Both the position numbers and the translations under genes were made by a program. Positions 20,279 to 64,000 of a stretch of 64,000 bases of DNA are shown here, piece by piece. The DNA is taken from contig OW203769.1 of assembly GCA_934045905.1 (NCBI GenBank), positions 13,733,705 through 13,797,704 on the forward strand, written 5' to 3'. Origin of the DNA: Leuctra nigra (lineage: Eukaryota > Arthropoda > Insecta > Plecoptera > Leuctridae). Every line of letters starts with the position of its first letter. Position 1 is the first letter of the stretch. The notes below the pieces were generated by a model that worked only from the letters and a program-made list of their open reading frames with translations, was not told the origin of the DNA and searched no databases.

Positions 20279-20282
20279 ACAT

Positions 20283-21742
20283 TGTAACCTGCCACTGCCT
20301 TTGACACCGAAATCTATGAATTTATGGGCCGAAAGTTTCAATTTTGAAGTTCTATCTTTTAGAACGCGGACCGAAAAGTTAATTTAGAACAGTCAGGATG
20401 ACACCACCGTAAGTATCAACCCCCACGCCTACGGTCGTTCTAAAGGGGAATATAATAAATTTACTGTTTGAAAGAATACCGAGCTTGGCTCATGCGTGGA
20501 CAGCAAAATAACTTTACTTTAAACCAGATACTCTTAATCCGAACTCTTGATGATCTCTTGATGTTACACTAGTCTTTCCAGACAAAACTCAGTTTTTGTG
20601 ACAACCAGGAAAAGATGGATTGTGGAGAGTCGAAAATAAACCACTTCGTAGCCTGATGTTTGCTGACGAGTTTGATTTTATTGCTCACTTGAAACTTGAA
20701 ACACTTGTGGTCGATCACTTTACACACTCAAATTCGGTAACAACAATGAAAATATCAAATAGTTAACTCAATCGCAATACTTTCACACTTAATTTCGGTT
20801 ACAACATTTAAATTATCGAATAGTTAACTCAATTGCAATTACAACTTACACTATACAAATCCGAAACGTATTATGATTTAACTACTGTTGAATTAAATTT
20901 AGCACTGCCTATCAGATCTAGACTCCAGTATATGTCCTTTAAGAGGAGAGAGCGAGCAGAAGTCTGCCCATCGAATGGTAACCTAATTTTGATGAGCTGA
21001 AATTTATAGACTTTTGAAAAGTCGTAAAACTTGATACTAAAATTTAGTTCGAACTATGTCACAGCTTGGCGCCACAAATCAAGCTCTCAAACCTCTTGAC
21101 CAATCCGGTGATGCCGGTAAATACAGTCACCTACTATGTTGGCCTTGGGCTGACATAGGAGAAAACCCTGATTTGAAGTACAGTTTTAAAAATTAAATTT
21201 GATTCTTAGTAAATATATTATTGATTATTTATCAATTACAATCTTTAACATTGACAATTCTTGCGGATTAAACTAGACTACACAATATAGAAAACAGTAA
21301 ATTTGCTGTATTAAAAACCTAGACTTCCAAACTGTCAAATGGTTTTGCTTTGAACTCCTCATAATGTATCTTATGAACATAACATACCCAATTGCTCCAA
21401 TAAAATGAAATATACATTTCCTCTTAAGTTCACAAAACTTGTTACCATGATTTAATCATTTGTTTTACCTGTAATTATTATCCATCCTCAATCATCAATT
21501 CAAGTAGGTATGTGATAAACATTATACTGATTAAAACTTGCTTCTAACTAAAGAATTTTGTAATTAACATTAATATTCAATTATTTGAGGTGTCAATTCA
21601 ATTAGCATTTAAGATTATAAGAAAAGTTTAAAGACTTACTGAAATTAGTAGCAGAAATTAAAGGTCCTATTTCAACAAATTATCTTGAGTTCCACTTGCA
21701 ATATTTCATGTTTATGAAGTCATGTTTATGAAGTTGTTTACA
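20283..21742 (-). repeat. 3' LTR of the large Gypsy element
   Basis: 1460 bp. It has the same length and, by eye, the same sequence as 44966-46425. In element orientation it starts TGTAAACAAC and ends GGCAGGTTACA. The outer flank is ACAT and the inner flank is the G-rich tract at 21743-21758. Confidence 0.92.
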
Positions 21743-25066: not shown

Positions 25067-27958
25067 CTAAACTAAGCTTTTCAACTCGGCCAAGTCGGCT
25101 GGAAATTCCCGGAGATCCATCGAGTTCCATTCTCTAATGGTTCGGTTCACGAACGAATGCCTACCACCCTCAGTACGCGACCTTCTCTCCTTGATTTTCC
25201 ACGAATGGTCGTTCCTGCTGTAGTAGTCCGGCATCGCAAACCTACTCGCCACCTCCTTCCAAGCCTCCTTCCCGACTAACGCTCTGTACATGTTTAAAAG
25301 GCGAGCCTTCCTCCTCCTATCCTCCAACGATTCCCACTCTAGCTCCTTTAGCATTTCGCTTACACTTTCGGGAACCCGTTGGAGTGTGATCTTGAACTCA
25401 CTTCCCACCTTATGCCCTTTGTTTGCTATGACCCACTTTCTGTATTTTGTTTTGCCCGTTACTTTTCTAGCGGCTCTTCTCTGAACATTCTCTATCGCCC
25501 TGATCTGTCCCTTTTTGTAAGGGTCCCATACTGCTCCAGCATATTCCACGATGGGCCTGATTAGCGTTGTGTACGCTTTTGCTTTGGTTCTATGGCTAGC
25601 GCCCTTCAAGCTCCGCATCACAAACGCTAACTGCCTTGATGATTTTGCGACTACCGATCCGATTTGTAAGTCCCCGTCCATCTTTCGATCTAGCACCACA
25701 CCAAGGTATTTACAGCTATCCTGTTTGTCTAATAGCACCCCTCCCATTTGGTAACTTCCACTATCTACATTCCGTGCCCTCGAAAATCTAACATACTGAC
25801 ATTTTTTCGCATTCACAACCATTTTATTTTTAATCGCCCATGTCTCTATTTTATATACATCCTCCTGCAACTCCCTTCTGTCCTGATCACACCTTATAAG
25901 TTTGGTCAGAATCAGATCGTCTGCAAATAATCGAACCTTAGCTGTAACGCCCTCCCCAATATTATTTACATATATTATAAACAGCAGGGGACCCAACACG
26001 CTTCCTTGGGGTACCCCTGATGTAACAGCTACGCTCCTGGATAGGCATTTTCCTACCCTAACTCTCTGTGATCTGTTGCGAAGGAAACTGCCTATCCAGT
26101 CCACCACTCCCTCGTGCAGTCCCAAGCTGCCAAGCTTACCCAACAACTCCCCATGAGGCACCTTGTCGAAGGCCTTCTCAAAGTCAATCAAGATTGCGTC
26201 CACGACTTCGCCTTTATCCAACGCCTCATGAAGGTCCTCCGATAAACCCGCTAACTGGGACTCACACGAGTGTCCCGGTCGGAAGCCATGTTGCTCGCTC
26301 CTTAGCCATCCCAGTTTCACTAGGTGACCCCGAACGTACTTGGCTATGACCCCCTCCATGGTCTTGCAGATCACAGAGGTAAGGCTAACCGGTCTGTAGT
26401 TTCTGGGATCACCTCTCTCCCCTGCCTTGAATATTGGGACCACCGTCCCTTGCTTCCATTCTAGAGGTAACGTATTTGTGGCAAAAGATATTCTGAAAAG
26501 CTCATCCAAATATTGAATTATGCTATTTCCTGCCATCCTTACAGTATCCCCTGAAATATTGTCTGGCCCCTCTGCCTTTCCACTCTTTATTTTTCTGACC
26601 TCTTTCCATATATCTGTTGTAGTTATATTCAAACTTTCCCACATAGCTTTTTCATTTCTCCCTCCAATATATTCCCTGTCCTTTGCTTGAAAAACTCTGG
26701 AAAACTGAGTGCTTAGCATCTCTGCCTTATCCTCGTCCTTATCTGCCTCCGAATTATCGTCCTTCAGACCAGGAATGTCTCTGCCACTTCCTTTCTGCCC
26801 TCTAATATGGGCATAAAGTTTTCTCCAGCTACTTTTGATGTCCTGCTCATCAAACAGTCTCTCCATATATTTATCTTTGGCATCTTTCTTAGCACCAGTA
26901 AGCTCTTCTCTAATAGCTTTACGCTTCACTCTCCATTCATTTTCTTCTAACCTGCCCTTCTTTCTATGCAGTACTCTCGCTTTTCTCTTTATTGTTTTGA
27001 CAGATTTATTGTAAAAAGGCGGATCGCTATTTGGACGAATGATTTTACGCGGCACGAACTTTTCCCTACATGTGTTTAATAGGTCCTTGAGCGCTTCCCA
27101 TCTAACTTCACAAATTTCCTCTTTACAAGACCAATCACCGAACATTTCTCCCATGAACTTTTTTACTCCATCTTTATCTACCTTTCTGTACAGCCAAATC
27201 TCTTTGTATGTTTCTGCTTTTTCCTCACTTTTATTTACAAAATCTATGTCTAAAATTGGTACCTGGTGATCACTTATTCCCTCGACTACCTCCCCTCCTA
27301 ACCATAGGTTCGGTGGACGAACGAGGAAGACGTCTAGGAGGTTTGACCTATTGTTGTTCCCATAACCTCTCGTTCCCTCCTGCACCGTCTGTACAAAACC
27401 CTGGTTCATTATTTGATGTACCAGGGCTTGCGTCTTATGTGGCACACTTTCATCGCCCATGTCCCACAGAACCCCAGGTAGATTAAAGTCCCCTCCAATC
27501 ACCACTCTCGCCTCTTCACTCCATTCCTGCAACCTTTCGTTGAGTCTCTCTAACAGCTGGATTCCTCCCGGTCTATACCCCGCAACAATCTTTAGGACCA
27601 CATTTCTTTCTTTTACTTCAACACACATCATCTCTACTTCCTTTTCAACCCACTCAACTCTGCATCTTAATCCTTCCCTGACCCCGATAAATATTCCACC
27701 TCCATGACGGTTTCGGTCTCTCCTGAATATCCTGAAACCGGCACCAAACACTTCTGTGTCCCGGATATCGGGGTCCAGGAAGGATTCAACGCCAATGAAT
27801 ACATCAGGCTGATGACAGTCAATTAGTGAGCTGAATTGAAGCTGTTTAGGAAATACACTTCTACAATTTACTTCTAAAAACCGTAACTTATATCTATTTA
27901 CAATTTTTACACTTTTCTTTATTTCCCCCGTCCTTCTGTCCATTGGTCCTATTTTCAT
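25067..27958 (-). CDS. CR1 ORF2: endonuclease and reverse transcriptase
   Basis: An intact 963-codon ORF, normal length for CR1 ORF2. The N-terminal third is an APE-type endonuclease, with the motifs VIGGDFNLPG and GISDHQVPI, the SDH being catalytic. The reverse transcriptase follows, with HGFRPGHSC, IDFEKAFDKVPH, TSGVPQGSVLGP and the active site FADD (CR1 and related LINEs usually have FADD rather than YADD). The C-terminus is basic with a Trp-rich segment. The protein nicks target DNA and copies its own RNA from the nick. Its ATG lies 8 nt after the ORF1 stop, suggesting re-initiation or coupled translation. No stop or frameshift was seen, so the enzyme may be functional. Because it was read from genomic sequence alone, activity is inference. 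Confidence 0.93.
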   Translation of the reverse strand: MKIGPMDRRTGEIKKSVKIVNRYKLRFLEVNCRSVFPKQLQFSSLIDCHQPDVFIGVESFLDPDIRDTEVFGAGFRIFRRDRNRHGGGIFIGVREGLRCRVEWVEKEVEMMCVEVKERNVVLKIVAGYRPGGIQLLERLNERLQEWSEEARVVIGGDFNLPGVLWDMGDESVPHKTQALVHQIMNQGFVQTVQEGTRGYGNNNRSNLLDVFLVRPPNLWLGGEVVEGISDHQVPILDIDFVNKSEEKAETYKEIWLYRKVDKDGVKKFMGEMFGDWSCKEEICEVRWEALKDLLNTCREKFVPRKIIRPNSDPPFYNKSVKTIKRKARVLHRKKGRLEENEWRVKRKAIREELTGAKKDAKDKYMERLFDEQDIKSSWRKLYAHIRGQKGSGRDIPGLKDDNSEADKDEDKAEMLSTQFSRVFQAKDREYIGGRNEKAMWESLNITTTDIWKEVRKIKSGKAEGPDNISGDTVRMAGNSIIQYLDELFRISFATNTLPLEWKQGTVVPIFKAGERGDPRNYRPVSLTSVICKTMEGVIAKYVRGHLVKLGWLRSEQHGFRPGHSCESQLAGLSEDLHEALDKGEVVDAILIDFEKAFDKVPHGELLGKLGSLGLHEGVVDWIGSFLRNRSQRVRVGKCLSRSVAVTSGVPQGSVLGPLLFIIYVNNIGEGVTAKVRLFADDLILTKLIRCDQDRRELQEDVYKIETWAIKNKMVVNAKKCQYVRFSRARNVDSGSYQMGGVLLDKQDSCKYLGVVLDRKMDGDLQIGSVVAKSSRQLAFVMRSLKGASHRTKAKAYTTLIRPIVEYAGAVWDPYKKGQIRAIENVQRRAARKVTGKTKYRKWVIANKGHKVGSEFKITLQRVPESVSEMLKELEWESLEDRRRKARLLNMYRALVGKEAWKEVASRFAMPDYYSRNDHSWKIKERRSRTEGGRHSFVNRTIREWNSMDLREFPADLAELKSLV

Positions 27959-27966
27959 TCCCCCAT

Positions 27967-28935
27967 CTACAACTCGTTTTTTGATGCCCTATCACTATTT
28001 CCCAGCTCCTTTTGAATACATTCTACAATAATTCTACCCAGCTTCTCTCCCCCCGCCGTGTTGAGGTGCAGCCCGTCCCCTGATGCGAAATTATTTGGGA
28101 ACTCGTGGCTTAGTGGGACGAACTTGGCACCCAACTCTTCGCACAGCCACGAAACACTTTCATTTAGTTTGTCCATTGTTTCGTCATGTACGTCTGCTCT
28201 GTACATCATCCCGTTGACTATAAACCGGGCTTCAGGGTATTTAGCCATTCCCACCCCAAGAAGCTCTTCCATCTCCACCATGAGGTGGCGCTCAGAACTT
28301 CCGCTATATCGACTCCTTCCGACACGAACATTGTTTGTTCCGACGTTCAAAACTACTACTTTTGGAGTGATTGTCCTCTCCATCAGCTTTAACATGTTTC
28401 CTAGTTCAGCAATTCGAATGCCTGGAAACACGTCCACCGCACACCCACTTTTCCTGCAGACGACACCTGCACCTCTTATTAGAGAGTCCCCCATAACCAG
28501 AACTTCTCCTTCGTCGCACACGATCAATGTTGCACTGTTGCTGCTGTTTCTCGGTGGTGTTTTGCTCAGCTCCAGGATGCGGCGAAATCTTTCTTCCCTC
28601 CTTTGTTTCAGAATCTGTTTCTGCTCGCTATTCTGCTGTTGCTGTTGTTGCTGCTGCTGTATTTGTTTTTGTTGTTGTTGTTCTTGTGGTGTCTGCAGGA
28701 GTTGATGAGGTTGCTGTCCCTGTTCTTCTTGTACCTCCTGCAGCAGCATTTCGCTTTGCTGTTGCTGTTGTTGCTGATCCCGTTTGTGATTTAGCCTTAG
28801 TTCAAGAAGAAGGCTTTGCTTGTGCATTTGATGTTTTGCTTGCTGCTTCTGTTTGTCTTCCTTCTCCAGCTGCTGGGTACCGGTGAAACTGCCAAGGGCG
28901 GCCTCGATGGAATCTGTTGAATCACAGGTGGGTCA
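27967..28935 (-). CDS. CR1 ORF1, C-terminal part: Gln-rich linker and SGNH esterase
   Basis: The frame is open from the stop at 27967 up to about 28935. A Met at 28827 starts a 286-codon stretch. It begins with a long polyglutamine-rich linker (CAG/CAA repeats, 28620-28790) and ends in an SGNH/GDSL hydrolase. Block I is GDSLIRG, block III is VLNVGTNN and block V is DGLHLN, so the Ser and the Asp-His pair are all present. Esterase domains in CR1 ORF1 are known, though their substrate is uncertain, perhaps membrane lipids. The zinc-knuckle part lies in another frame just upstream, so ORF1 as read here carries a frameshift near 28930-28960. Confidence 0.85.
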
Positions 28936-32001: not shown

Positions 32002-33548
32002 CTATTGATCTGATAACTTCGAGGTATATCTCTTATTGCTATTTTTAGCATCCATGGAATATGGCCTTAATCTCAACTTTCGGAGGTCATACCGAGTGCT
32101 CGGGGTTCGTTCATATGATGTTTCGAAGTCAAAGATTTCGAAGTCACTGCTAACTTCATCACTCCCGCTCCCTTCACTCAGCACATCTCTAGTAGGACCG
32201 GGCGGTTGAATGTTATTTGGTTCATGAACGATTTCCCGTGTCTTCCTCCCTCGATTTCGGGCCTTCTGAAAAGCACAGCGTCCGCATCGCCTCACACGCG
32301 AACTGGTTTTGAGTGATGCGGGTTGCCTAAATCTCACCGCTGGCCCCGTGCTCGAGCTTGCTCTCGGCTCGTTTCGTTCTCGCGGTCGCTCACCAGCGGC
32401 AGCTTGCCTCTGGTCTTCAGTACGCGCTTGGCGTCGGCGAGAGGAGTACTTTTGTGCATGTTCCGTGCGTGTGAGGATTAATTGTTCCGCGGACACCGTG
32501 TTATCTTCATCTGCGGAACTGGATTCACTGTGGAATATTCTCGTTCTGATTTTGGTAAGTTTTCTTTGTCTTTCCGGCGCTTGACTATTATCTATTTCAT
32601 TGTATTCAACTTGATTATCATTGTCGTTTTCTGTCCCAGCTAAATCAAAGGAATTGCCCAATTTTATGTGGCGGGCCTCCTGAAGCAGCTCATCGCTTCC
32701 CACCACGCCCTGGCTTCTCGTCGGCGCAGTTTCTTCAAAGTCTGACCAGCTTTGGCTTGGGGCAAACTTGGTAAATGACTCTTGGGGAAGAAAATACTGT
32801 ATATTACTATTTGTATCGTATGTTAGCTCAGTTTTCTGATTTTCAGGAATGTTCAACGGATATTGCACGGTGTTATATGGAAAGACGTCATGGTCCCCAA
32901 CAGGGACTTCCTCTACATTGATGTTGGTATGTTTTAACGTAAAGTTATCATGGAAATCCTCTTCAGCGAACGTATTGAGTTTTCTTAACCTGTTATAATG
33001 CACGATAGATTCTTTCTCATCATACACATGCCGTATTTTGTACTGATAGGTGCCGGGCACTTCTATAATACGCCATGGGCCTGAATAAGGCTGAGTAAAC
33101 TTGGAACCCACTCTTTTGTTTGGTCTAATTGAGTGTAGATATACGAGGTCTCCAATTTGAAGCGACATTGGCCTGCATTTTTTGTTGTAAGATTTCTCAT
33201 ACTTGTCAGTGGCCTTTCGAATGTTTTCCTGAACAATTTTTAATGTCTCGGACATGGTGTTTATCAATTCTGTCGCATATATTTTATTATCCTCATCGGT
33301 ATTGGGTAATCTTGGCCCAAATAACGTAGAATAAGGGAGACGGGCATCCCGGAAATACATAAGCCAGAACGGTGAATAGCCTGTAGTTGAACTGATACAC
33401 ACTCTCATTGATAATGTAATGAGCGGCAAAACTTCCTCCCAATCTAGCTCACTACTATTCACATAAGCAGACACCGTGTCGGCAATGATTTTATGATACC
33501 GTTCAACGAGGTTCGATTGGGCATTATAGGTACTTAGAAATACTCGAT
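32002..33548 (-). CDS. Gypsy Pol, 3' part: end of integrase and C-terminal extension
   Basis: The frame is open from the left edge of the DNA transposon (33548) to the stop at 32002. The first Met is at 33474. It carries the end of the integrase catalytic core, including the segment expected to hold the third (Glu) catalytic residue. The chromodomain-like/GPY-type module follows, with GDLVYLHS, YSGPWRIIEV and HYNRLRK. A long acidic, Arg/Ser-rich extension of about 290 residues with RRRQARTEDQRQAAAGERPR completes it. The reading frame matches that of 38172-43394 once the transposon and one copy of a 2-bp duplication are discounted, so both halves belonged to one intact pol gene. Confidence 0.9.
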
Positions 33549-33550
33549 CA

Positions 33551-36500
33551 CCCTACAAACACTGGGAGGTCCCTGGACGCGTCCTAGGCCGTCCCAGATG
33601 GGCGTACGGGCCTGCCCAGGGACCTCCCGTCTTATGGGTGATTAGCATGGAGTGAGACTCCCGGGGCCTGCCACTGGGAATAAGCCCGGGCGGCGGCCTG
33701 GGCCGTACCATGACGCCCGCGCGGGAGGTATGGGCCGTCCCTGGACCCTCCCGGGCGGCCCGCGCGGGAGGCATAGGCCGGCCCTGGCCCCCGCCCGGGC
33801 GGCCCGGGCGGGAGCAGCTGCTCGCTTTGTAGCCCCCTCCCCCTACGCACATTCCATAACGGTCACGTGCTAGCTTGCTAGGTACACTCTCATTCAAAAT
33901 GCAGTACCTACAAAACGTGCCTCTGATCCAGACACGTGCATATAGGCACTAATTTTGAATGCGAATGTACCTGGAAAAAATACGTTTCATTAAGACATAA
34001 TTAATTGCAAACGTAAGTGACACGAGAAACGGGATTTTTTCACAATTTCGGAGAGTGGGCGTTGCCATACGAAAAAAATAATCCAGGTATTTTCTTCCAG
34101 GGTCAATGTATTAGTTCACAGTTCACGGAATATTTCACAACAGTTGTAATTTGTTATGTCAACTAGAAGAACAGTAGGTACCTACTCAAACACATTAGAA
34201 ATGCATTTAAATGGTCAAATATTAATAAAAAAAAAATAGTCGGTACCTATATTATAAAGTTAATCAGTGGTTATTGGAAGTTATTTTATCTCGCCATGTT
34301 TCCCTATTGTTTGAAAGCTGTTCCACTGACCTGACACATTACCTAAGGTACCTCCTACTGTTTTTTTTTAACGCATTTTTATTTGGAGGAAATATTTTGG
34401 GATCATTTGAAATCCTCAACTTGACTGTCACATAATGGGGAAGTCTCGTGAAATTCAGATTTCAGAATAATAGACCCTTATTTTATGAAAGTTGATTATG
34501 TTGCTGAACACAGATGTGATTTTATTTTTGCTGTGGGATGAATAGTTTTCAAGGAATGAATTTACAAAGTTTGATTACTTTTAACAGGAAAATTTACAGA
34601 AAATTGACAGATGATCCACAATGGTAACACATTAGTGTAAGTGGATTCTTGTAATACGTCGTTTTTCCCGCCAAAAGTCCCATTATAATTGAATTTCATT
34701 TGCATGAATTAATTTTTAACATTTCGCGGGTGACAAATGTCAGTAATTATTTGCGTTGATATTTAAAAACTTACTGGAACAAAATTTCTAGAGACTTAAG
34801 TATTACCTACCTTATTCATAAAAAAATGAAGAAGGATAAAAAGATCCATAATTTTTGTTTATGAATCAGTTGTTGGATTTTGAAATTAGCAATTATTTTT
34901 TGATAATCTCTTACAGGACGATTGAATCGTTTCAATAATAATTTTTTCACGTACTCTTCCCTACTTACCTACTTAGGTACTATATTGTTTTGATAAATTA
35001 CAAAAAATAAAATGCTACACATAGAAGATTCACTTCAATTGAATTTTAGGAATAATAAAGAGCAGGAAAACACACGAAAATTAAAAAAAAAACAGTTTCA
35101 TATAATATAAACGTATATTATTGTAAAAGATTATACTACCACATCACTTAAAATTTTTAAATGTCCTTCAACCTTCACACGTCACATAGTATCAAAACAT
35201 TCTGAGGTAGGTACTACCTGGCAGTGAGTCTGGCACGCTGTCTCTTTATCGACAAGACACAATTCGGATTTTACTTCACTCACGGATATGTTGGCACAAT
35301 TTTTCATCTTCAGTTTTTCAAGAAAATGAATGCTATTGAATACGTATTTCTTTCATCTGAAAAAATAAAATTGCAAAGTATTTAGGTAATGTACCTTGTA
35401 CTAATAATGTTCGCAAGATATTTGCAATTATTTATTATTGTAGGTACAGATTCTAACCTAAACAAGATTTATACAAGATCTTGAAAAGTTTAGCAAGATC
35501 ATGCAGCGTATTGTTAGAAGTGTTTTTTATTTTTTGTGTAAATTTTTATTCGGTCAGACCAATGAAAGTCCAACATTTACAAGATCTTGTTATCAGTAAG
35601 ATCTTGTTAATTTTGTCAATATTTAACACTATTATTATGCTATGCTCAAAAGAATTTTCCGATTTAATGGCCAGATACTGGATTCCATCCATAAATTATT
35701 AGCACACGGTCTTGTGGTGTCGAGGACTGACATCCGCAATCTACGTGGATGCAACTTCTTTTGAGCATGAGGCTGCCTAGCAAATAGTTTCTACCTACTA
35801 CACAAGAACTATTTATGTAAATAACCCTAAAAAAAGAAAGATAGATTCAATGAAGAATTTGTAAATTGATAGGATAAACTTCTTGGCAATGAATAATACA
35901 AAAATCACTTTTGTGTTGTGTGACCTGCCACAATAATCACTTGAGGTACAATTATTACCATTAGGTACACTATTTATTTAAAACCCCAATAAAAATTTGA
36001 AACATTCTATATTGCATAAATGTGATTTATAGGTAAGGTTAGAGGAAATACTACACATATAAAATACTAAAATGTGGCTTACCATCAGAGAGTTCTGAAT
36101 CATTACATCTGTAGGGTAGATAACATTTAATCCATTTACTCGATGAAGTCCCAAGTCCTGTGCATCTTCAGAATTCTCGCTAATTTGCCAAGAAGTAAAT
36201 TTACTTTTTAATTGAAGTAGGTAGGCAATTAAATCGACTCTAGAATAAGAGCAGGGCAAGTTCACGGTGAATCTGTAGAACCTACAAAAAGTAAGGTGAA
36301 AGTTAGCAACTCAAATTAATTTCCTCTCAGCCATTCCGTGTTACGGGTGTACGGGTGTAAGATGCTATGTTCAGCATCTTATTCATCAAAATAAAAATAG
36401 TTCTAGGATCATTGTGCAGCCTTCTAAATTTTTTATGTAATTTAGGTACATGGTTCGACACGAAATTTAAATTTAAATGCGGTCCCACAATTTTACTGAT

Positions 36501-38171
36501 AACAAAATAACTATTCAAACTTAAAAAAAAACTGATTACATATTTGGAATCAGCAAGAAAATACCATGAATTTAATATAAAAACATGCTGATTTATTTAC
36601 ATTTAATAATTCAGCAGTCATCATGTATTATGTGGCATATGTCTGCATTCGCATGGAATGGCTGCTCTCTTACCACCGGCGCGTTAGAGGAAATTCAAAA
36701 GGTGCGGTTTATTTTTTTGGATGACAACATTCAATCTCAAAAATTTTACTACGTATTTGAATGAAGCGGGACCACCATTCAATGTATGTATCTACTACCT
36801 CCGACAAGAATGTAATTTCCATGCAACATAATTTTTACTTTCGGATCACAGCAAAAATGTTTGTTATTGGCCTTGTAAGGTACCTACATAAACAAAAATA
36901 ATTGATGTATATCTAAAATCCTTGATAAAGTTAAATAATTAAAAATAATGAATATATTTACCACTCTGCTCGGTTCGGTTCTTAATGTTTCGGCTCGGTT
37001 TGACGATACAGCTTGGTTCGCTCGCAGGACGAATACGCGCTTTGTTTCTGGAGTTCAATATCTTAATAGCCTATTTTCTTCCAGAGTAGATTCACCTTTA
37101 ACAAGTAACATTATTAAAACTGCAGTAGGTACCTTGGTAGGTATGTGGGATGGTTATTGGTTAATGTAGAGGTGAAAATATTCCCAAAATAGGCGGAGGT
37201 ACGTACTAGGTAGGTACCTACAGGTAGGGTTTCCTACTGACTACTACCACTGATATGTATAGACTACCACGCCAAGCAAACTGTTTACCTACTTTATTTA
37301 TTTTATAAATACCTAAACTACCTAGTTGGAAATTTTACTTTGCATAAATTGCTACATTTCAAAAATTTACATGTGAGGTTAATGTTTACTGAACATTGGT
37401 CACACTACCTATTGGTTTATTAGTATCCCCAGCATACAAAACTAAAGTAACAACGATTAATGCCTGGATACTTATGTAGTTGTGATGAAGACTCACCTTC
37501 AATGGGTTGTATGGCTCTGTGATGAAAATCCAAACAAAAGAGGCACAACAAAACTGTAATTATTTCACGATTTGTGTCACATTAAATGGTTTGAACTGAG
37601 ACAAACTATTCAGCAGTGAACACTGCATTCACGGACACAGATAATAATTGAAATCACATTCAAAATCACTCAAAAGGACGTAAACTACACACTCATGACA
37701 CTCTGTAAAATATCAACAAACGTCAAACGCCGCGTTTGAAATGAAGAAGGGAGAACGGAAACAAGTTGATTCACGAAGATGGCCGACTGCCGAGTTCATA
37801 AAAGAAACTTTACTAATAACGTTTAAAATGGTATGAATACTTTGCTTTGGAATTGTAAACATATTTATTCTTAAATCAATATATCCATGTGAAAGGTAGA
37901 TGTAATTATTATAGAAATGAAGTTATAAATATGAAAAAAATAAGTCATTAGAGCAGCTCAAATTCAAACAGTCGTAGCGCCCGCGCGGGCCGTCCCTAGC
38001 CATTCCCGGGCGGGACCAAGACGGGACATTCCTAGAAATTTTACAGCCAGATAAAACGGATCGGTTGGGCTCCGTTGGGCAGGCCCGGGGCATGCCCTAG
38101 TAGTTCCCGCCCGGGACGTCCCACTTGGGCGCTAGATGGGCAGAAGCCCGGGCCGCCCAGTGTTTGTAGGG
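33551..38171. mobile_element. 4.6-kb DNA transposon inserted in the Gypsy integrase gene
   Basis: The ends are perfect 16-bp inverted repeats (CCCTACAAACACTGGG), flanked by a 2-bp CA (33549-33550 and 38172-38173). About 300 bp at the left and 200 bp at the right are very GC-rich, with many short palindromic CCCGGGCGGG/GTCCCTGG-like motifs, while the 4-kb core is AT-rich. The excised pol frame is continuous, which fixes the borders. No transposase ORF above 100 codons is present, so it is non-autonomous or has a heavily intron-split gene. A 2-bp duplication with CCC ends does not match the common TA, TTAA or 8-bp classes. I leave the superfamily open. Confidence 0.9.
36083..36281 (-). CDS. Exon-like segment inside the DNA transposon
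   Basis: On the minus strand a good acceptor (ACTTTTTGTAG) precedes 199 nt open in one frame (FYRFTVNLPCSYSRVDLIAY, then KSKFTSWQISENSEDAQDLG and NVIYPTDVMIQNSLM). It ends at a consensus donor, ATG|GTAAGC. A second candidate donor (GAAG|GTGAGT at 37496) lies upstream, and the GCCATCTT motif at about 37775-37785 may belong to a promoter. Joining the two does not give a long ORF in this frame (a stop falls at the junction), so translation might start inside the exon. The protein is unknown. It could be part of a spliced transposase or a captured host gene. Confidence 0.35.
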
Positions 38172-41100
38172 CAACTCCCAGCATTTTACTCACTTCGGCG
38201 AAGAATTTTGACACATAGTTTGGGCCGTTGTCTGAGATAAGAACCTTTGGCATGGCATGATCTACGACTACATGCTTAACGAACGCCCTTGCAGTAGTTC
38301 TCGCAGTTTGATTTGGAATTGGTACCAGTATTATCCACTTAGTTAGTCCACAAAGAAATGACATAATGTACCTATTTTGGGCCTTGGAGGGCTTCAAAGG
38401 ACCCACAATGTCCGTATAAACGACCGACATGGCTTGGTTTATGACTGGTTTTCTTCCCATAGGTGCTCGATTGGCTGTCTTCCGCGGGTGGCGCTTCTGG
38501 CATTCGGGACAACACTTGACATAGTTATCTACCGCCTTATGCATTCCGCTGAAGTACACCTGCAACTTCATCAAGGCCAAGGTCCTATCCTTCCCACCGT
38601 GCGCAGACATCGTGGGCAGACAATGAAAAGCCGCAATAACTTCTTTCTGGTAAGTTTTGGGAATAACCAACTGATCTTCTCTCTCACCTAGCTTTCTTTT
38701 CCTATAAAGAATCTTATCAAGGTCCAGATAGTAATTAAGATTTGTTGTTTCTTCCTTCGCAAGCTGATCTATTATAGGAATAAGTTGTTCGTCTTTGCCC
38801 TGTTGTATTTTTATCTGGAACCTGTCTAGAATAGGAAAACAAGATCTCTCGCCTTTGATACCTGTAATCAGATTAACCTGTGCAGGTGCTCGTGATAAAC
38901 AATCGGCCACGACATTGCGATGACCTTGAATATGCTCTATAGTATGATCAAACTCGAGCAAGGTCAAGGCCCACCTACTTTGGCGCGCAGAGGGCCGGGG
39001 CAATGATAAGGCATACGTGATACTAGCCTGATCCGTTCTTATCAACACCTTTGTTCCCCATACCCACACGTAAAACGTTTTAAGTGCATTTATGACTCCC
39101 AAAAGTTCCTTATCTACTGTTCCATACCGCGTCTCGGTATCTTTCAGAACTCGAGAAGTGTAGGCAATGGGACGTTCTACGCCATCTATTTCTTGGCTAA
39201 GCATGCCTCCGATTGCATAATCTGATGCATCCGTTGTGACTATGAAAGTTTTAGTCATGTCAGGGTAGGCTAAACATGGTTTGGTTGTTAACATCTCTTT
39301 CAATTTTGAAAACGCCACTTCTTGTTCTTCCCTCCAATCAAAGGGGTAGTTTTTTCTTGTAAGCTTTATTAGGGGAAAACTGACATCTGCAAAATTTGAG
39401 AAGTGTCGGCGATAGTATCCACACATGCCTAAAAATCTCTTGATCTCAGTTATATTTCGAGGTCTCGGGAAGTTAACCACTGCGGAAATTGACTTTGGAT
39501 TCGGTTTTACCCCTTCTCTTGATAAATGGAACCCCAAGTAAATTACGGAGTTTCGAAGTATTCTGGACTTTTTAGGATTTAGTTTAAGTCCATTTTTATG
39601 GAGTCTTTCCAATACTTCTGCCAAACGTTCCATGTGCTGCTCAATGGTGTCGGAAAACAACAAAATGTCATCAATGTAGCAAGATAAATAAGGCAATCCC
39701 ATCATGACGTCATCAATTAGGCGTTGAAATGCCAAAGGGGATGTTTTTAAGCCGTAGGGCATTCTGTTGAAAAAAAATTGATCGGATATGGTGGAAAAAC
39801 TAGTCTTATACCGGTCTTCCTTGGCCACGCCTACCAGGTGAAAAGAATTTTTTAAATCAAGGGAAGTAAAATACTTTGCTTTTCCAACTCTGTCAATCAA
39901 TTCCACAATTGAAGGGGTGGGATTCCCAAGGGGTATCAAATGTTCATTCAGATATCTATAATCAATAACGAGCCGCCATTGCTGGGGCTCTCCAGGGCCT
40001 GTGGCCTTGGGGACCACTAAAGATGGCGAGCACCAAGGGGACGTGCACCGTTCAATTACTCCGTCCGTTAGCATATCAGAGACAATCTTGTCTACAAATT
40101 CACGCTGGAGATAGGGTACACGATAGGGGGTTTGTTTTTTGGGTGTAACATCATCTAAATCTAATTTGTGCACCGCCGTAGGGTGTAACCCTAACTCGTC
40201 CCCATCCAGGTGATATACACTATGATATTGCATAATCAAGGCCCTTATTTGCTCGTGCGCTTCAACCGGTATTTCTTGCATCTTTCCCATGCCCCAGATT
40301 AATTTTAATCTCTCTTCTGGGTCCGTAATTGGCGGTATTGGTATGTACGGATAATGATATTTCGGATCCTCAATTATAATGGCCACTCTTGCTATCTCTT
40401 CTGGACTCCTGTCATCTGTTTCTTTGGTCGCCTGAGATATTTTCCTGACTTTACCCAGTAACGTACCTTCCGCGATGTTTATAGCACGCCTAGACAAATT
40501 GACAGCATGAACTGGTAATTGCAAGTCTAAGTTTTCTTCATAGATTGCTTCTACTAGCTTTATGCCGGGTATTAACCTTGAACTGGGCTCAAAAATTACA
40601 CTTTTACTAGTGCTTTCTTGCAGGTTTGTGTACAATAACCTTTTTTGTCTTCCTATGCACCAAACCGCTGATGAAGCCGGCACCTCCACTGCGTTTTTCA
40701 CAAACAGTGTTGAACATCTCGTTTGAAATACTACATTAACTCTTTGAATCACTTTTGAACTGGACGCTTGTTCCTCCGAGGTGTCAGTTGTTTCAACTTT
40801 TCTCTTGGAAGCCTTTTTATGTAGTTTCTTTCCTGGAATACTTTTCCCCCTGACTTCACATCTTTCCTTGAAAGACATATCGGGAGTAATAATGTCTTCT
40901 TCCACATCTTCAATAGTGACTCTCTCAATCTCTTTCTCGGTTTGCTTCCCAATATTTGTTTGTTCTTCACTCTTTTCAATTTTCTCCATCTCTTCCACTC
41001 CATACAGGTTTCTAAAACCTTCTGTTAAATCTTCTTCTTCTCCGCGATTTGCCGTGGTAATTATTTCCACTTCGGCATCTTGTTTCCACCTAACCTTTTG

Positions 41101-43394
41101 GAAAATGTTACGTCTCTTCCTCTTCCGAGGATACCTGATCATATTCACTTGTCTCAAATTACCGGAATCGCCACTAATTACAAAACAGTTTAATTTTTGT
41201 AAACAATTCATTTTTCTCCAATTTTTCTCTTTTGAGTTTTTAGTTATCCATTGCGATACCTTTTTCTGGTATGATGTCAATCTATCATTACAATAATTAA
41301 ACACTAAATTTTCATTTCCACATGCCTCGAGAGGGTTTTCCAAATCACCACATGCCTCGAGAGGGTTTTCCAAATCACCACATGCCTCGAGAGGGTTTTT
41401 CTTATTACCACATGCCTCGAGAGGGTTTTCCAAATCACCATATGCCTCGAGAGGGTTTTCCAAATCACCACATGCCTCGAGAGGGTTTTCCAAATCACCA
41501 CATGCCTCGAGAGGGTTTTCCAAATCACCACATGCCTCGAGAGGGTTTTCCAAATCACCACATGCCTCGAGAGGGTTTTTCTTATTACCACATGCCTCGA
41601 GAGGGTTTTCCAAATCACCATATGCCTCGAGAGGGTTTTCCAAATCACCACATGCCTCGAGAGGGTTTTCCAAATCACCACATGCCTCGAGAGGGTTTTC
41701 CAAATCACCACATGCCTCGAGAGGGTTTTCCAAATCACCACATGCCTCGAGAGGGGTTTTCATATTTGTTATGAATAATTCTTCATTAGTATTACTCTGT
41801 TCTTCTTTCGCTGGTATTTTCCATACGTTATTAATATTTTCATCCTGATTTATTCTGACAAGATTTACTAGTGGCTCTTCTCTGTCCTGTAATTTAACTA
41901 AGTTTGAAACACTCACATCTACCTCTTTTTCTTCACTGATGGAGGTCAGATACTTAGAGGCTATCATTTTCTGGGTTAAAGCTCCGATTCTTAAACCACT
42001 TTTAGCCTCTTCACCTGCATCCCTTAGACTTCCCCACGAGTCTAGCATTTTTACTGTTTGTTTAGCATGTTTGAAATTATTGGTCTTGGAGCCTATTGTG
42101 GTGGATTCTTGATCCACAGACTCGCTTTCCTCCAATCGTCTCTTCAGTGTCTTATGTGGCTCTTTTAAACTTACACAGTTCTTTGCCTCTTCACATTTTT
42201 CTAAGTGGTTTCTTTCAGTATTTAATGGATCGTTAATTTCTTGAATCGGGCTCCTTTGGACATAAAACTCTTCCTTATCTTGCTCATCTGATCCCAGTGC
42301 TTGTTGTATGTCTAATTTATGATTTTGAACCTGTTCTGGGTAGGTTAGTTCATGTGCTTGGTTTATTGAAGCGGGTGGCCAGTGACACGCGATTACTTCT
42401 ATATCGGTTTCCTTGAAGGCCAAAATTACTTCTGCTTTAACTGGTTCCCATTCCAATCTGTCTAACCCACATCCTAAACGAGGAATCGCTAGACGCTTAA
42501 TGTTATGTTGAACACATAATTTTTTTAAAGTTCCCAGAGTCTTCACAAACACATTAAAGTCTGGTTTTTGATATGCAAATTCCTTTGTTACCATGCTATA
42601 TACAAAGCGATTATGATCACGGATGTACAATATGCCTCCCACACATTTAATTTTCCCTTTCCAGTCTTTTAGCTCGGGAAAACGCTTTACAAACTCTACG
42701 GCTAGTCCTTTCGACTGGACTGCATCCTTAGATATACATTGTGTCAAGGAAACATCATCATCATTATCAAAAATATCCCTTTCTAATTCTACAAACTTAA
42801 ATGTATGTTTAGTGTCTTTAGACACTGACTGTACATTGCCTAAATTAAGTGACCAATTTATCCCACACGGGCATTGAACTTGATGGTAATCTGATGGTAT
42901 TCCTGTCTGGATAAACACTTCTGATACCCCATCATTTCCATAGCTGACAATGTTTTCTTTATCTATCAGTAACTTATTACTAGTATCTAAGATTAGGCCA
43001 TAGGCGCGCATAAAGTTATATCCAAGTATGCCCCCACCCCCAGTATTAAGCTCATCACTACACACTATAAATCTAAAATTATATATCTTATTTCCTAATT
43101 TCAGATTTACGTCTGAATACCCAACAACCGGTAATGCTGATCCCGTGACTGACAGTATGGGTTCCTCTGCTCGATAGATGGGGATGCCAGCCCTCTGGAC
43201 CAACCCCTGATGCAGGATGCTTACATCTGCACCACTGTCTATCAGCATACGGTATGATATAATAGTTCTAGCATCTATACCGACTATGAAACTATTTACA
43301 ATTGGCTTTACATCTCTCCCTCCGGAATTATAATTTTCATGACAACATTTGTTCGACTGAATAGTTAAGGGTGGCTCCTGGGAGGGTTCAGTTA
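38041..43394 (-). CDS. Gypsy Pol, 5' part: protease, macrodomain, repeat, RT, RNase H, integrase
   Basis: The frame opens at about 43423 (overlapping the end of gag in -1) and has its first Met at 43248. The 1735 codons from there include transposon read-through after 38172. Domains by residue from that Met: retropepsin, 1-95 (LIDSGADVS, ILGYNF); OARD1-type macrodomain, about 148-292; variable Glu/Lys-rich linker with the 10-residue repeat, 499-645; spacer before RT (VEVPASSAVW); reverse transcriptase with CYIDDILLFSD (Asp pair at about 1193-1194); RNase H (VTTDASDYAIGG, RTDQAS); integrase with its zinc domain (CPECQK) and the first two catalytic Asp (VYTDIVGPL, LISDNGPNY). The insertion at 38172 removes the rest of the integrase. 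A Pol of about 2200 residues is roughly twice the usual Ty3/Gypsy length. It replicates the element in cytoplasmic particles and inserts the DNA copy. Confidence 0.92.
41322..41754 (-). repeat. In-frame 30-bp tandem repeat in Pol, 15 copies
   Basis: Each unit encodes about NPLEACGDLE. Variants EAYGDLE and EACGNKK recur in fixed order, so six units (180 bp) form a higher-order repeat present twice plus a partial. DNA identity between units is near-perfect, so expansion is recent. It sits in the linker between the macrodomain and the RT and adds about 145 residues. Confidence 0.95.
42373..42807 (-). other. OARD1/TARG1-type macrodomain within Gypsy Pol
   Basis: Residues about 148-292 of the Pol frame follow the fold order of OARD1 (TARG1). 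They have an FxxVxxDIF start, TQCISKD, KGLAVEFVKRF, the segment VYSMVTKE holding the catalytic Lys (residue 222), a long helix, then LAIPRLGCGLDRLEWEPV holding the catalytic Asp (residue 263), and a final strand IEVIACHW. In OARD1 this Lys and Asp remove ADP-ribose from glutamate side chains and process O-acetyl-ADP-ribose. The ligand loop differs (QSKG where OARD1 has a Gly-rich MGAG), so activity is not assured. The domain is in frame and uninterrupted between protease and RT. Confidence 0.85.
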
Positions 43395-44774
43395 CTACCC
43401 TTGATAAAAATACGGTGCTCCGTTAATTGTCGGGTTTGGCTGTACCCCTTCGGCACTAGTTGTTTGAACTCCCACCGAGGATGGACCCGCTGAACTAGGC
43501 TCTTGCCTTTGAGACACCGAAGTTTCATTTTCAGAAGTCACTTGAGGAGTTAAATGTGGGCCAAAATATACAGTATGAAAAGCCTTCTCTTGACTGTAAG
43601 GCGGATACGGCCTGAAATTTTGATTCTTTTGTGCATTATCCATATTCTCCGCTCTCATTCTGATTCTGCATTCGGAAATATGATGACCCCGGCGGCCACA
43701 ATACCTGCATTCCATCTGAATTGATTGTGATGCATCTTGATTATAGTTTCCTTGTCTGGGCGTTTCTTTCACTGAATTATTTGTTATTTCGTTCTGTTTC
43801 AGCACTTCAAGAGGTGATGGGCAATTATTAGCATAATGTCCAATCCCACCGCACCGAAAACATTTTATTCCTGGGGCCGTGTTCACAGCTGCTCCCTCAC
43901 CAGTGCCCGCACGTCCACTTCGGAATTGTGGCGGTGGACCATTTCGATACCGTGATCCGGTATTGGGCATGTTAGCCAGAACTGGTCTTGAATAATTTTG
44001 ATTAGAAAATGAGGGGGACTGACCCGCGAAATCTGGTGTTTGCAACATTCCTACTCTGGGTCTAGTATTCCTTTGGTTCTCAAACTCTGTCGCTAGTTCC
44101 AATGCGTGCTCCAGCGTCTTAGGATCTCTCATCCATATTATACTCCCTCCGCTTTCTGTTCTTAATCCGCGCACAAATGTTTTAACTATTGTTCTATCGA
44201 TCATAGCCTTCGTAAGTTTAACGTCTGCCACCGACATTCCCGGGGCCTCTGCTGTTCGAATACCTGCCATCTTTAAACGAACCAAATACTGCTTGGCACT
44301 TTCGGAATTAGCTTGTTTGCAATTGTAGTACACCTGTACCGGATCTTGGCTCGAACTCGGTGCTCGGAACCAATCTACTAGCGCGGTTGTTAGGTCACTC
44401 CATGAACATCTCAATAAGCTGGGATGGCTTCCCAAGTAGTCCGCGGCGGCTCCCGTCAATCTGAGCTTCAAAATTGTCTTTTTAATGTTATCAGACCAAC
44501 CTCCCAGAGTCCCTACGGAATTTAACGATGTAATAAAATGTCTAAGTGGCACCGAGCCGGACTCACCAGAAAAGTAAGGCACCAATGGCAACAGACCGCC
44601 AATGTTTTGACTCACCGCTAACAACTCTGCCGGTATTGTAGCATCATGGCCGTCGTTTAGCTCGAAGGTGTTATCTCCATTCTCTTGTGTGTCTTCAAGA
44701 TTTTCGACCTCTTGAGTAGGTGGAAGTACTTCTTCGTATATGTTCTCCACAGACATCCTTAAGTTGCTTGTCAC
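43395..44774 (-). CDS. Gypsy Gag
   Basis: 459 codons, starting MTSNLRMSVENIYEEVLPPT and ending at the TAG at 43395-43397. The central part is a capsid-type domain (LPLVPYFSGESGSVPLRHFI, then a retrotransposon-gag-like region with W-F-P-S motifs). Two zinc knuckles follow, CFRCGGIGHYANNC and CRYCGRRGHHISEC, both perfect CX2CX4HX4C. Gag packages the RNA and forms the particle. Pol is in the -1 frame and the overlap is only about 30 nt. No canonical heptamer is obvious in it (only a T-run, TATTTTTATC), so how Pol is made is not settled. The PBS lies about 170 nt upstream of the start codon. Confidence 0.92.
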   Translation of the reverse strand: MTSNLRMSVENIYEEVLPPTQEVENLEDTQENGDNTFELNDGHDATIPAELLAVSQNIGGLLPLVPYFSGESGSVPLRHFITSLNSVGTLGGWSDNIKKTILKLRLTGAAADYLGSHPSLLRCSWSDLTTALVDWFRAPSSSQDPVQVYYNCKQANSESAKQYLVRLKMAGIRTAEAPGMSVADVKLTKAMIDRTIVKTFVRGLRTESGGSIIWMRDPKTLEHALELATEFENQRNTRPRVGMLQTPDFAGQSPSFSNQNYSRPVLANMPNTGSRYRNGPPPQFRSGRAGTGEGAAVNTAPGIKCFRCGGIGHYANNCPSPLEVLKQNEITNNSVKETPRQGNYNQDASQSIQMECRYCGRRGHHISECRIRMRAENMDNAQKNQNFRPYPPYSQEKAFHTVYFGPHLTPQVTSENETSVSQRQEPSSAGPSSVGVQTTSAEGVQPNPTINGAPYFYQG

Positions 44775-44943
44775 AAATTCAGAGTGTAAATAATAAAAGA
44801 GTCTCTGAGTTTAACCAATGAAATCGACCGAAGAAAACAAAACACAAAATTTTTTCAGATTTTATTGAAAATAATTTGACTTTTTGCAAAATTTTTTTTT
44901 GTACTTTTAACTTATCTAGACCCCTGAAAAGGGCCGATTTCAA

Positions 44944-44963
44944 GAATCCCACTTCTGACACCA
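44944..44963 (-). other. Primer-binding site for tRNA-Leu
   Basis: On the minus strand TGGTGTCAGAAGTGGGATTC is complementary to the 3' end of an insect tRNA-Leu, including CCA. It is separated from the 5' LTR by 2 nt. Confidence 0.92.
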
Positions 44964-44965
44964 AT

Positions 44966-46425
44966 TGTAACCTGCCACTGCCTTTGACACCGAAATCTAT
45001 GAATTTATGGGCCGAAAGTTTCAATTTTGAAGTTCTATCTTTTAGAACGCGGACCGAAAAGTTAATTTAGAACAGTCAGGATGACACCACCGTAAGTATC
45101 AACCCCCACGCCTACGGTCGTTCTAAAGGGGAATATAATAAATTTACTGTTTGAAAGAATACCGAGCTTGGCTCATGCGTGGACAGCAAAATAACTTTAC
45201 TTTAAACCAGATACTCTTAATCCGAACTCTTGATGATCTCTTGATGTTACACTAGTCTTTCCAGACAAAACTCAGTTTTTGTGACAACCAGGAAAAGATG
45301 GATTGTGGAGAGTCGAAAATAAACCACTTCGTAGCCTGATGTTTGCTGACGAGTTTGATTTTATTGCTCACTTGAAACTTGAAACACTTGTGGTCGATCA
45401 CTTTACACACTCAAATTCGGTAACAACAATGAAAATATCAAATAGTTAACTCAATCGCAATACTTTCACACTTAATTTCGGTTACAACATTTAAATTATC
45501 GAATAGTTAACTCAATTGCAATTACAACTTACACTATACAAATCCGAAACGTATTATGATTTAACTACTGTTGAATTAAATTTAGCACTGCCTATCAGAT
45601 CTAGACTCCAGTATATGTCCTTTAAGAGGAGAGAGCGAGCAGAAGTCTGCCCATCGAATGGTAACCTAATTTTGATGAGCTGAAATTTATAGACTTTTGA
45701 AAAGTCGTAAAACTTGATACTAAAATTTAGTTCGAACTATGTCACAGCTTGGCGCCACAAATCAAGCTCTCAAACCTCTTGACCAATCCGGTGATGCCGG
45801 TAAATACAGTCACCTACTATGTTGGCCTTGGGCTGACATAGGAGAAAACCCTGATTTGAAGTACAGTTTTAAAAATTAAATTTGATTCTTAGTAAATATA
45901 TTATTGATTATTTATCAATTACAATCTTTAACATTGACAATTCTTGCGGATTAAACTAGACTACACAATATAGAAAACAGTAAATTTGCTGTATTAAAAA
46001 CCTAGACTTCCAAACTGTCAAATGGTTTTGCTTTGAACTCCTCATAATGTATCTTATGAACATAACATACCCAATTGCTCCAATAAAATGAAATATACAT
46101 TTCCTCTTAAGTTCACAAAACTTGTTACCATGATTTAATCATTTGTTTTACCTGTAATTATTATCCATCCTCAATCATCAATTCAAGTAGGTATGTGATA
46201 AACATTATACTGATTAAAACTTGCTTCTAACTAAAGAATTTTGTAATTAACATTAATATTCAATTATTTGAGGTGTCAATTCAATTAGCATTTAAGATTA
46301 TAAGAAAAGTTTAAAGACTTACTGAAATTAGTAGCAGAAATTAAAGGTCCTATTTCAACAAATTATCTTGAGTTCCACTTGCAATATTTCATGTTTATGA
46401 AGTCATGTTTATGAAGTTGTTTACA
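44966..46425 (-). repeat. 5' LTR of the large Gypsy element
   Basis: 1460 bp, same length as the left copy and no difference noticed by eye. The outer flank ACAT (46426-46429) matches that of the left LTR. The LTR should contain the promoter and poly(A) signal, but I did not pin them down. Confidence 0.92.
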
Positions 46426-46429
46426 ACAT

Positions 46430-57579: not shown

Positions 57580-58597
57580 TGTAACGGTTTGAATTCGGCG
57601 CTGGCGCCAACGTCAAGTCGTTACCATTAGCCGGCATTTGTACCCATATTTGGAGGGTCGCCTAGAGCAGAAAAGATGTCATGCGCAATGGTCAATGATA
57701 GTCGAGTTCGCGGATCGGCGACCTGAGCTCATTCTCTTTCTCTGGCTGACCGTCGTCGACTTCACATCGCCGCGTGAGTAGTGTTTAAATGTAGATTGTA
57801 ACCACGCTAAGTTGTAGCGGATATAACGTAGTGCGACTGGTCGTCCAGCCCCTACTTGCAGGTTCAATCTTGAGCTTTGTTAACAGAATCATTATTGTGC
57901 CCCTGTGGCCTACTTGAAATAGAGTAGTTAATGTATTTTGTCGTTGCGTAGTTTTTGTATTGCAATCAAGTGTGGCCACACTTGGATTGTCTCCGCGGAG
58001 AGTCAGGCAGTCAGGGAAAGGGCACCCTTTTCGGATCATCAAACCTATCTAAATTCAACATTGTATTAAGTAAGTCCAGTAATCTTAGAACGTCGTCTGT
58101 ACGAGTTCTATTTAAGTAAATGTCCGAAGTAATTCGGCGAGCATCTTATCACGGAGGAGTGTAAGTAAAGAGTTTATTATATTTATCATTGTATTGTATC
58201 AGTCTTATTTGCTATTCATTCAATTGCATGTGTTGTGTTGCCTCCAGGCACACAGCTGATGAGGTTACGACCTGTGTTGTACACAGAGTCCATTTACGCG
58301 AGGAGGTCAAACCCCCGGTACTCTGTTATCTCATTCTGATCATTTGTATGTTGTGTTTATTTGACTGTTCATTTATTCCTCACTTGAGGTTAAGTAATAA
58401 AACCATAATTAATGTCAACTGGACATCACCGCCTTATGTCTTGATAGTCTAGCACCTAGTTCTGATCCTATTGCTCTCGCTCATGTCGTGTCTCTCTCTT
58501 TGTCAACTACCACGAGATCACCCGCCCACACCCATCTCCAGCTGTTGCTAGCCCGGCACTGGTTATTTCTGCCCGAGGCGACGACGCCGGCGTGGCA
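57580..58597 (+). repeat. 5' LTR of the polo-intron Gypsy element
   Basis: About 1018 bp from TGTAACGG to a TGGCA that ends 3 nt before the PBS. The right border is inferred from the PBS because the 3' copy is truncated. Confidence 0.85.
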
Positions 58598-58600
58598 TTT

Positions 58601-58618
58601 TGGCGCCCAACGTGGGGC
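58601..58618 (+). other. Primer-binding site for tRNA-Lys
   Basis: TGGCGCCCAACGTGGGGC is the complement of the 3' end of insect tRNA-Lys(CUU), including CCA (family knowledge). Confidence 0.88.
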
Positions 58619-58831
58619 CTGGTGATCAAGACGCGACGTGTGGAGCCCGAACGTTGGCATTTTGGTGCTCAAATCCAAAATCGACGTGGGACAACAACGA
58701 CCTTCAGACGCTTGTGTTTGCTGTGATTACATCGAGATACGTTTGACCTTCGAGTTACGTGAACACGCCGTGAATACTGGTGAGCTGTATCGTTCAGTCA
58801 TTATTTATCCCTGTTACGTAATCTTTTCATC

Positions 58832-63036: not shown

Positions 63037-63083
63037 CTTGTAAGCAGAACTCGAAGAAAAAGAAAATTGTATTTTCTTTTTGT

Positions 63084-63100
63084 TGGGGTTAACGGGGAAT
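63084..63100 (+). other. Candidate polypurine tract
   Basis: GGGGTTAACGGGGAAT directly precedes the 3' LTR at 63101. Confidence 0.65.
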
Positions 63101-64000
63101 TGTAACGGTTTGAATTCGGCGCTGGCGCCAACGTCAAGTCGTTACCATTAGCCGGCATTTGTACCCATATTTGGAGGGTCGCCTAGAGCAGAAAAGATGT
63201 CATGCGCAATGGTCAATGATAGTCGAGTTCGCGGATCGGCGACCTGAGCTCATTCTCTTTCTCTGGCTGACCGTCGTCGACTTCACATCGCCGCGTGAGT
63301 AGTGTTTAAATGTAGATTGTAACCACGCTAAGTTGTAGCGGATATAACGTAGTGCGACTGGTCGTCCAGCCCCTACTTGCAGGTTCAATCTTGAGCTTTG
63401 TTAACAGAATCATTATTGTGCCCCTGTGGCCTACTTGAAATAGAGTAGGTAGTTAATGTATTTTGTCGTTGCGTAGTTTTTGTATTGCAATCAAGTGTGG
63501 CCACACTTGGATTGTCTCCGCGGAGAGTCAGGCAGTCAGGGAAAGGGCACCCTTTTCGGATCATCAAACCTATCTAAATTCAACATTGTATTAAGTAAGT
63601 CCAGTAATCTTAGAACGTCGTCTGTACGAGTTCTATTTAAGTAAATGTCCGAAGTAATTCGGCGAGCATCTTATCACGGAGGAGTGTAAGTAAAGAGTTT
63701 ATTATATTTATCATTGTATTGTATCAGTCTTATTTGCTATTCATTCAATTGCATGTGTTGTGTTGCCTCCAGGCACACAGCTGATGAGGTTACGACCTGT
63801 GTTGTACACAGAGTCCATTTACGCGAGGAGGTCAAACCCCCGGTACTCTGTTATCTCATTCTGATCATTTGTATGTTGTGTTTATTTGACTGTTCATTTA
63901 TTCCTCACTTGAGGTTATGTAATAAAACCATAATTAATGTCAACTGGACATCACCGCCTTATGTCTTGATAGTCTAGCACCTAGTTCTGATCCTATTGCT
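63101..64000 (+). repeat. 3' LTR of the polo-intron Gypsy element, truncated by window
   Basis: It matches 57580-58475 except for one inserted GTAG and one A-to-T change. By comparison with the 5' LTR, it should end near 64122. Confidence 0.93.

Follow-up and report, generated by a model that had tools for sequence, protein, structure and literature searches.

Within a stretch of 64,000 nucleotides of the Leuctra nigra genome (Plecoptera; assembly GCA_934045905.1, contig OW203769.1, positions 13,733,705 to 13,797,704), hereafter the window, a Ty3/Gypsy retrotransposon carries a TARG1/OARD1-type macrodomain inside its Pol polyprotein, between the retropepsin-like protease (PR) and the reverse transcriptase (RT). 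Considering the fold, the position, the recurrence in many families, the agreement between trees, the purifying selection and the retained Lys and Asp, we give about an even chance to the reading that this domain would be a TARG1-type mono-ADP-ribosyl hydrolase that a Ty3/Gypsy lineage acquired long ago and has since retained as a standing component of Pol.

Among solved structures, the best sequence match of the window domain was OARD1 (E 1e-23), followed by the DarG macrodomain 5m3i (3.7e-06), while the Pfam Macro profile matched it at 0.028 only. The predicted model of the domain displayed a macro fold that was nearest to TARG1, with 28-33% identity in structural alignments; human TARG1/OARD1 (C6orf130) is a stand-alone cellular enzyme, whereas the domain described here is an intronless Pol module. 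Lys84 and Asp125 of OARD1, which Sharifi and colleagues are said to have found catalytic in 2013, align with a Lys and an Asp in the window domain. These results confirmed that a TARG1-type domain sits inside the Ty3/Gypsy Pol and upheld the sequence-only reading, which had recognized the domain and its two catalytic residues from motifs and had proposed a structural comparison with OARD1, stating that the absence of a macro fold would speak against it. A coincidental motif was ruled out by the OARD1 sequence match together with the TARG1 fold match. The element domain is probably catalytically competent.

To what extent the fusion recurs was evaluated in the same genome (536 Mb, 144 contigs), to which all the element comparisons belong. 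At least 150 macrodomain places were found with the window query and at least 150 with human OARD1, 39 of which were new, giving at least 189 combined. The listed matches of the window query comprised 11 at 100% identity (window included), one at 99%, then matches at 84% and 50% and many at 27-47%. When 20 loci of 9-10 kb were fetched to establish their domain order, PR, macrodomain and RT followed one another in 15, PR and macrodomain alone were found in L010, and the other four were long interspersed nuclear elements (LINEs); the Ty3 labels of two further loci, L037 and L047, rest on flanking residues read by eye. Since many copies with open frames exist, a single-copy artefact or an assembly chimera was ruled out, and the possibility that the fusion was unique to this copy, raised with the original prediction, was dispelled by related elements carrying the domain at the same position.

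A search of the same genome with the window RT returned 105 scored RT places. Among the macrodomain matches listed, a macrodomain was located on the same strand and within 8 kb upstream in 51 of the 59 nearest RT places and in none of the 46 remaining ones, which means that no listed match lies there and is not proof of absence. Of the eight exceptions, C9 belongs to the window family and has a macrodomain about 10 kb off on the opposite strand; for the other seven, too, the lack of a listed match is no proof of absence. Upstream of a 40%-identical RT, the stretch of the boundary element L083 gave no macrodomain match, nor any PR match by tblastn with the window PR, and gag-like and PR-like sequence was recognized in it by eye only; the corresponding stretch of L084 reads N. 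In the second Ty3 of the window (58784-63036), macrodomain matches were weak, the best (E 0.002, to a single sequence) lying behind the integrase (IN) and those in the gap between PR and RT reaching E 0.18 or worse. For 15 elements, the trees of RT and of the macrodomain had in common the groups {window, L011, L012}, {L022, L023}, {L013, L014}, {L019, L020} and {L029, L017, L024}, and L016 and L026 fell outside in both. The RT tree placed L022 and L023 with the L013-L029 group (100/99), a placement that the paired macrodomain tree leaves open, and another macrodomain tree put them weakly with the window group (84/72). As the trees mostly agree, the domain is read as having travelled with Pol.

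The macrodomain was also found in first open reading frames (ORF1s) of LINEs. In L018, L021, L025 and L027, no Ty3 match lay beside the macrodomain and endonuclease (EN) and/or RT frames followed. Downstream of the macrodomain frame, both EN and RT were recognized in L021 and L027, EN in L018 and RT in L025; L032 carries SAP and the macrodomain, followed by an EN frame. The macrodomain shares its frame with PHD in L018 (below cut-off), with SAP and a GDSL esterase in L021, and with GDSL in L027 (below cut-off), whereas L031, whose LINE label comes from domain matches, carries PHD together with macrodomain and GDSL matches that both fall below cut-off. L038, L039 and L046 have a different ORF1 tail, with EN or EN-RT frames recognized by eye, and the LINE labels of L030, L034-L036, L040 and L044 rest on flanking residues read by eye. 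The model of the L027 domain superposed on TARG1 at 0.9 A with 52% identity. Several LINE ORF1 architectures are thus present: PHD-macro-GDSL, SAP-macro-GDSL and macro with another tail. The sequence-only reading had mentioned neither these LINE copies, nor element families lacking the Asp, nor the macro-domain ORFs of fish retroviruses.

The earlier suggestion that the domain was kept under selection, for which a dN/dS comparison across copies had been proposed, is borne out. Thirteen macrodomain pairs were compared, and dS was finite in ten; in nine of these ten, dN/dS was 0.13-0.19, values that are rough because dS was mostly above 1, and recomputing five such pairs with slightly different boundaries gave 0.10-0.18. 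Near-identical pairs, with too few changes to be informative, gave 0.17 and 1.02, and one of them had five non-synonymous and zero synonymous changes. Between the window and L011, dN was lower in the macrodomain (0.097) than in PR (0.124), RNase H (0.131) and RT (0.234), and reached 0.535 in the linker behind the macrodomain. In the element alignment, whose rows include near-duplicates and which leaves out L045 because of a stop codon, the Lys was present in 34 of 35 rows and the Asp in 32, while Cys and Trp columns were invariant across the element macrodomains. Eight window-family pieces differed in 34 columns, none of them inside the macrodomain, which is weak evidence because the pieces were picked for an identical macrodomain protein.

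Regarding the origin of the domain, the host has a TARG1 gene of its own (L053 plus L056), in which two coding exons were recognized, separated by a 2.2-kb intron with GT...AG ends; the protein that they yield when joined is seamless and shares 52.7% identity with human OARD1 and 32.6% with the window domain. A recent copy of the host gene was ruled out by the approximately 33% identity to this intron-split TARG1. Of the proposal that the element had captured a host ADP-ribosyl hydrolase, the TARG1-type domain in Pol stood, while the host as donor did not find support, considering this identity and the poor resolution of the deep tree. Trees took in 33 of the best 120 of 214 protein matches, and two later ones omitted metagenome and bacterial rows as well as six element rows, one of them a long branch and the others near-duplicates. 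The window Ty3 group was recovered with good support, with 14 rows (99/96) and, in one of these later trees, with 10 rows (98/89). In the approximately unbiased (AU) tests, a single capture for all Ty3 elements obtained p 0.235, and a single capture for Ty3 elements plus LINEs p 0.362, 0.227 and 0.284 in three row sets; given that the deeper branches are poorly supported, these tests favour neither one capture nor several. Animal TARG1s and the host protein as one group obtained p 0.219 with one host exon and 0.042 with the two-exon protein, indicating that the cellular TARG1 backbone is itself poorly resolved. The donor could have been another lineage, a virus or another retroelement. When the Pol region was searched against 5.8 billion proteins, 81 and 199 candidates were returned, none at E 1e-3 and none being a Pol-length protein with a macrodomain; a search of viral contigs found nothing, and a search of genome contigs found 26 loci with bacterial titles. 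A further locus, L052 (G000:C1:65807242), has a 205-aa frame that holds a TARG1-like stretch of full length and has no recognized element neighbours; it groups weakly with the host TARG1 gene (91/90).

With respect to function, the macrodomain would be made within Gag-Pol, in Gag-Pol amounts and through a -1 shift, and would perhaps be freed by the element's own protease. It would then hydrolyse ADP-ribose from glutamate or aspartate, or from nucleic-acid ends, and so take away marks with which host transferases (PARPs or SIRT6-type) label element proteins, silencing factors or the cDNA or integration site and which would otherwise block transposition. The sequence-only reading had likewise supposed a counter to PARP-type defence or an action on DNA repair at integration, and both stay at the level of proposals. 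A counter-defence role of this kind is plausible, and we place it slightly short of an even chance. This plausibility comes from reports in which SIRT6 mono-ADP-ribosylates KAP1, leading to L1 silencing (PMC4695847), and in which the levels of mobile elements tend to rise in parp-1 mutant flies, many of these elements belonging to the gypsy superfamily (PMC7712786), as described in the available parts of both sources. The occurrence of the domain in unrelated LINEs as well speaks for a barrier common to both classes and not for a need special to LTR (long terminal repeat) integration, and, since LINEs integrate differently, argues against a role bound to the LTR integrase alone; this suggests that ADP-ribose marking may be an obstacle that both classes of jumping genes must overcome. 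More tentatively, ADP-ribosylation might hinder retrotransposition generally in this host lineage, with a TARG1-type eraser as the standard counter-defence of Ty3/Gypsy Pol and LINE ORF1, acquired by repeated capture or exchange; in one form of this idea, ADP-ribose would be taken off the ends of cDNA or target DNA before integration takes place.

Several observations weigh against a retained hydrolase acting in counter-defence. In addition to the roughness of the dN/dS values, the window-L020 pair gave 0.43 for the macrodomain, and within the L014-L029 clade seven pairs showed a macrodomain dN 1.7 to 6 times that of RT. The Asp is replaced in L029 (Gly) and in L042 and L043 (Asn), and the Lys in L024 (Ile); the frames of the three Asp-less loci are nevertheless open and 13 RT places have the frame length and score of L029, so hydrolysis is perhaps dispensable in some families. 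In the parp-1 fly report, as far as its available text goes, the statistics were weak for many elements, several changes were non-significant, some elements went down and an indirect effect was not excluded by the authors (PMC7712786).

Three other explanations were weighed against this background. LTR elements and LINEs both generate DNA ends, and the domain might rid DNA ends or repair proteins of ADP-ribose, at the cDNA or at the nicked target, thereby aiding the completion of integration. In favour of such an aid to integration or repair, overexpressed TARG1 is described as going to DNA damage and TARG1-less cells as being more damage-sensitive (PMC4695847, in the part available); however, the host already possesses its own TARG1 and no position or partner points to repair, and we regard this role as rather unlikely. 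PHD and SAP domains, which are chromatin- or DNA-binding modules, adjoin the LINE macrodomains (some below the Pfam cut-off), and, like the open frames of the Asp-less loci, this would fit a domain that binds ADP-ribose and tethers the element complex to PARP-marked chromatin or breaks, with hydrolysis secondary or lost. Nevertheless, the Lys and the Asp are almost always kept, and a domain that only reads the mark should have no need of the two together; such a role appears improbable. That the captured domain is a mere passenger, carried as a linker with no enzymatic role, would agree with the fast clade, the loss of catalytic residues in four of the 35 rows and the window-L020 pair, but it is very hard to reconcile with the low dN/dS of the other measurable family pairs, the invariant Cys and Trp, the nearly invariant Lys and Asp, the window-L011 macrodomain dN below that of RT and the retention of the domain over deep RT divergence.

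The window domain was also compared with known systems. Its best match among predicted viral folds was a TARG1-like domain in VP8 of Kadipiro virus (BFVD A0A8E0KJF2, E 1.5e-17, 36% identity), which we take to be a dsRNA virus. Alphavirus nsP3 macrodomains belong to another macrodomain class and are only 15-19% identical to the window-domain model. These proteins and coronavirus Mac1 likewise place a macrodomain in a virus protein, the carriers of the nsP3 and Mac1 type being RNA viruses; as far as the sources were available, they describe Mac1 as counteracting the PARP activity of the host and macrodomains as means of counter-defence used by RNA viruses. Among retroelements, ray-finned fish have epsilon-like endogenous retroviruses for which macro-domain ORFs are described (Basta et al. 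2009, via the review PMC4977317); by this description alone, these also acquired a macrodomain, but they are Retroviridae with additional ORFs, in contrast to the Ty3/Gypsy Pol and LINE ORF1 described here. In the accessible text on bdelloid rotifers, GDSL esterase and DEDDy exonuclease accessory ORFs are common to several retroelement classes (PMC5408684), likewise enzyme modules in unrelated classes, although these are other enzymes, located in ORF3, and the word macro is absent from that text. An orchid Ty3/Gypsy carries an AlkB m6A demethylase with activity shown in vitro (PMC9289625); according to the portion consulted, it is also a captured eraser with a proposed role in host surveillance against elements, but it is a separate ORF acting on an RNA methyl mark in plants and not a Pol-internal domain. 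The available text of a LINE ORF1 survey (PMC4120745) contains neither macro nor ADP-ribose, and that of a survey on NAD and ADP-ribose in viruses (PMC9503650, term search) contains none of six retroelement and TARG1 terms; the accessible parts of PMC6338049, PMC12440569 and PMC10499221 added nothing beyond a pointer to Basta et al. 2009, and no report of a macrodomain in Ty3/Gypsy Pol or LINE ORF1 was found among the top-ranked literature matches. Host ADP-ribosylation (SIRT6, PARP-1) was linked earlier to retrotransposon silencing, and if a retrotransposon polyprotein does contain an eraser devoted to such marks, that would be evidence, at the genetic level, for an arms race over ADP-ribose between hosts and transposable elements. 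With its many related domains, its naturally occurring catalytic losses and a host TARG1 that can serve as control, the system is open to testing, and the presence of the domain in Ty3/Gypsy elements and LINEs raises the question of whether retroelement classes exchange accessory domains.

The coordinates of the element are given in Table 1. Its assignment to Ty3/Gypsy follows from the Pol order PR-RT-RNase H-IN, the CCHC Gag, the TG...CA LTRs, the primer binding site starting with TGG and the short target duplication.

Table 1. Features of the macrodomain-bearing element and of its nested insertions, in window positions
Feature	Position	Strand	Remarks
Ty3/Gypsy element	20283-46425	-	LTR to LTR
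Pol frame PR-macro-repeat-RT-RNaseH-IN	38041..43422	-	IN interrupted by nested insert
gag with CCHC knuckle	43395..44810	-	
Retropepsin-like protease	43012..43254	-	Asp_protease_2, residues 57-137
TARG1/OARD1-type macrodomain within Pol	42373..42828	-	HMMER match ~42391-42789
Lys 280 of Pol frame	42583..42585	-	OARD1 Lys84 column, by alignment
Asp 321 of Pol frame	42460..42462	-	OARD1 Asp125 column, by alignment
30-nt tandem array, (NPLEACGDLE)n	41309..41766	-	between macrodomain and RT
Reverse transcriptase (RVT_1)	39523..40011	-	
RNase H	38950..39336	-	
Integrase zinc-binding and start of core	38164..38664	-	frame then enters insert
IN frame remainder past insert	32002..33552	-	Integrase_p58_C (E 0.00025, below curated cut-off)
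5' LTR	44966..46425	-	TG...CA
3' LTR	20283..21742	-	
4-bp target duplication ACAT	20279-20282 and 46426-46429		
Primer binding site region	44941..44963	-	begins TGGTGTCAGAAG
Nested insert, 4.6 kb	33551..38171		22-nt inverted ends; foreign to element
Nested LINE	25067..28932	-	GDSL ORF1 without macrodomain match; EN-RT ORF2; foreign to element

By coordinate arithmetic, gag and pol overlap by 28 nt, with pol shifted into the -1 frame with respect to gag, and no -1 slippery heptamer was recognized by eye within this overlap. The 30-nt array between macrodomain and RT varies from 8 to 15 units across eight otherwise near-identical copies. The two LTRs, of about 1460 bp each, are identical at 1463 of 1463 aligned bases, even though the element already hosts a LINE and the 4.6-kb insert with inverted ends. 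Elsewhere in the window, the second Ty3/Gypsy element (57580-64000) has LTR repeats that are 99.4% identical and a PR close to RT, and a tandem array at 8798-10051 consists of units of about 126 nt that are 96.5-97.8% alike.
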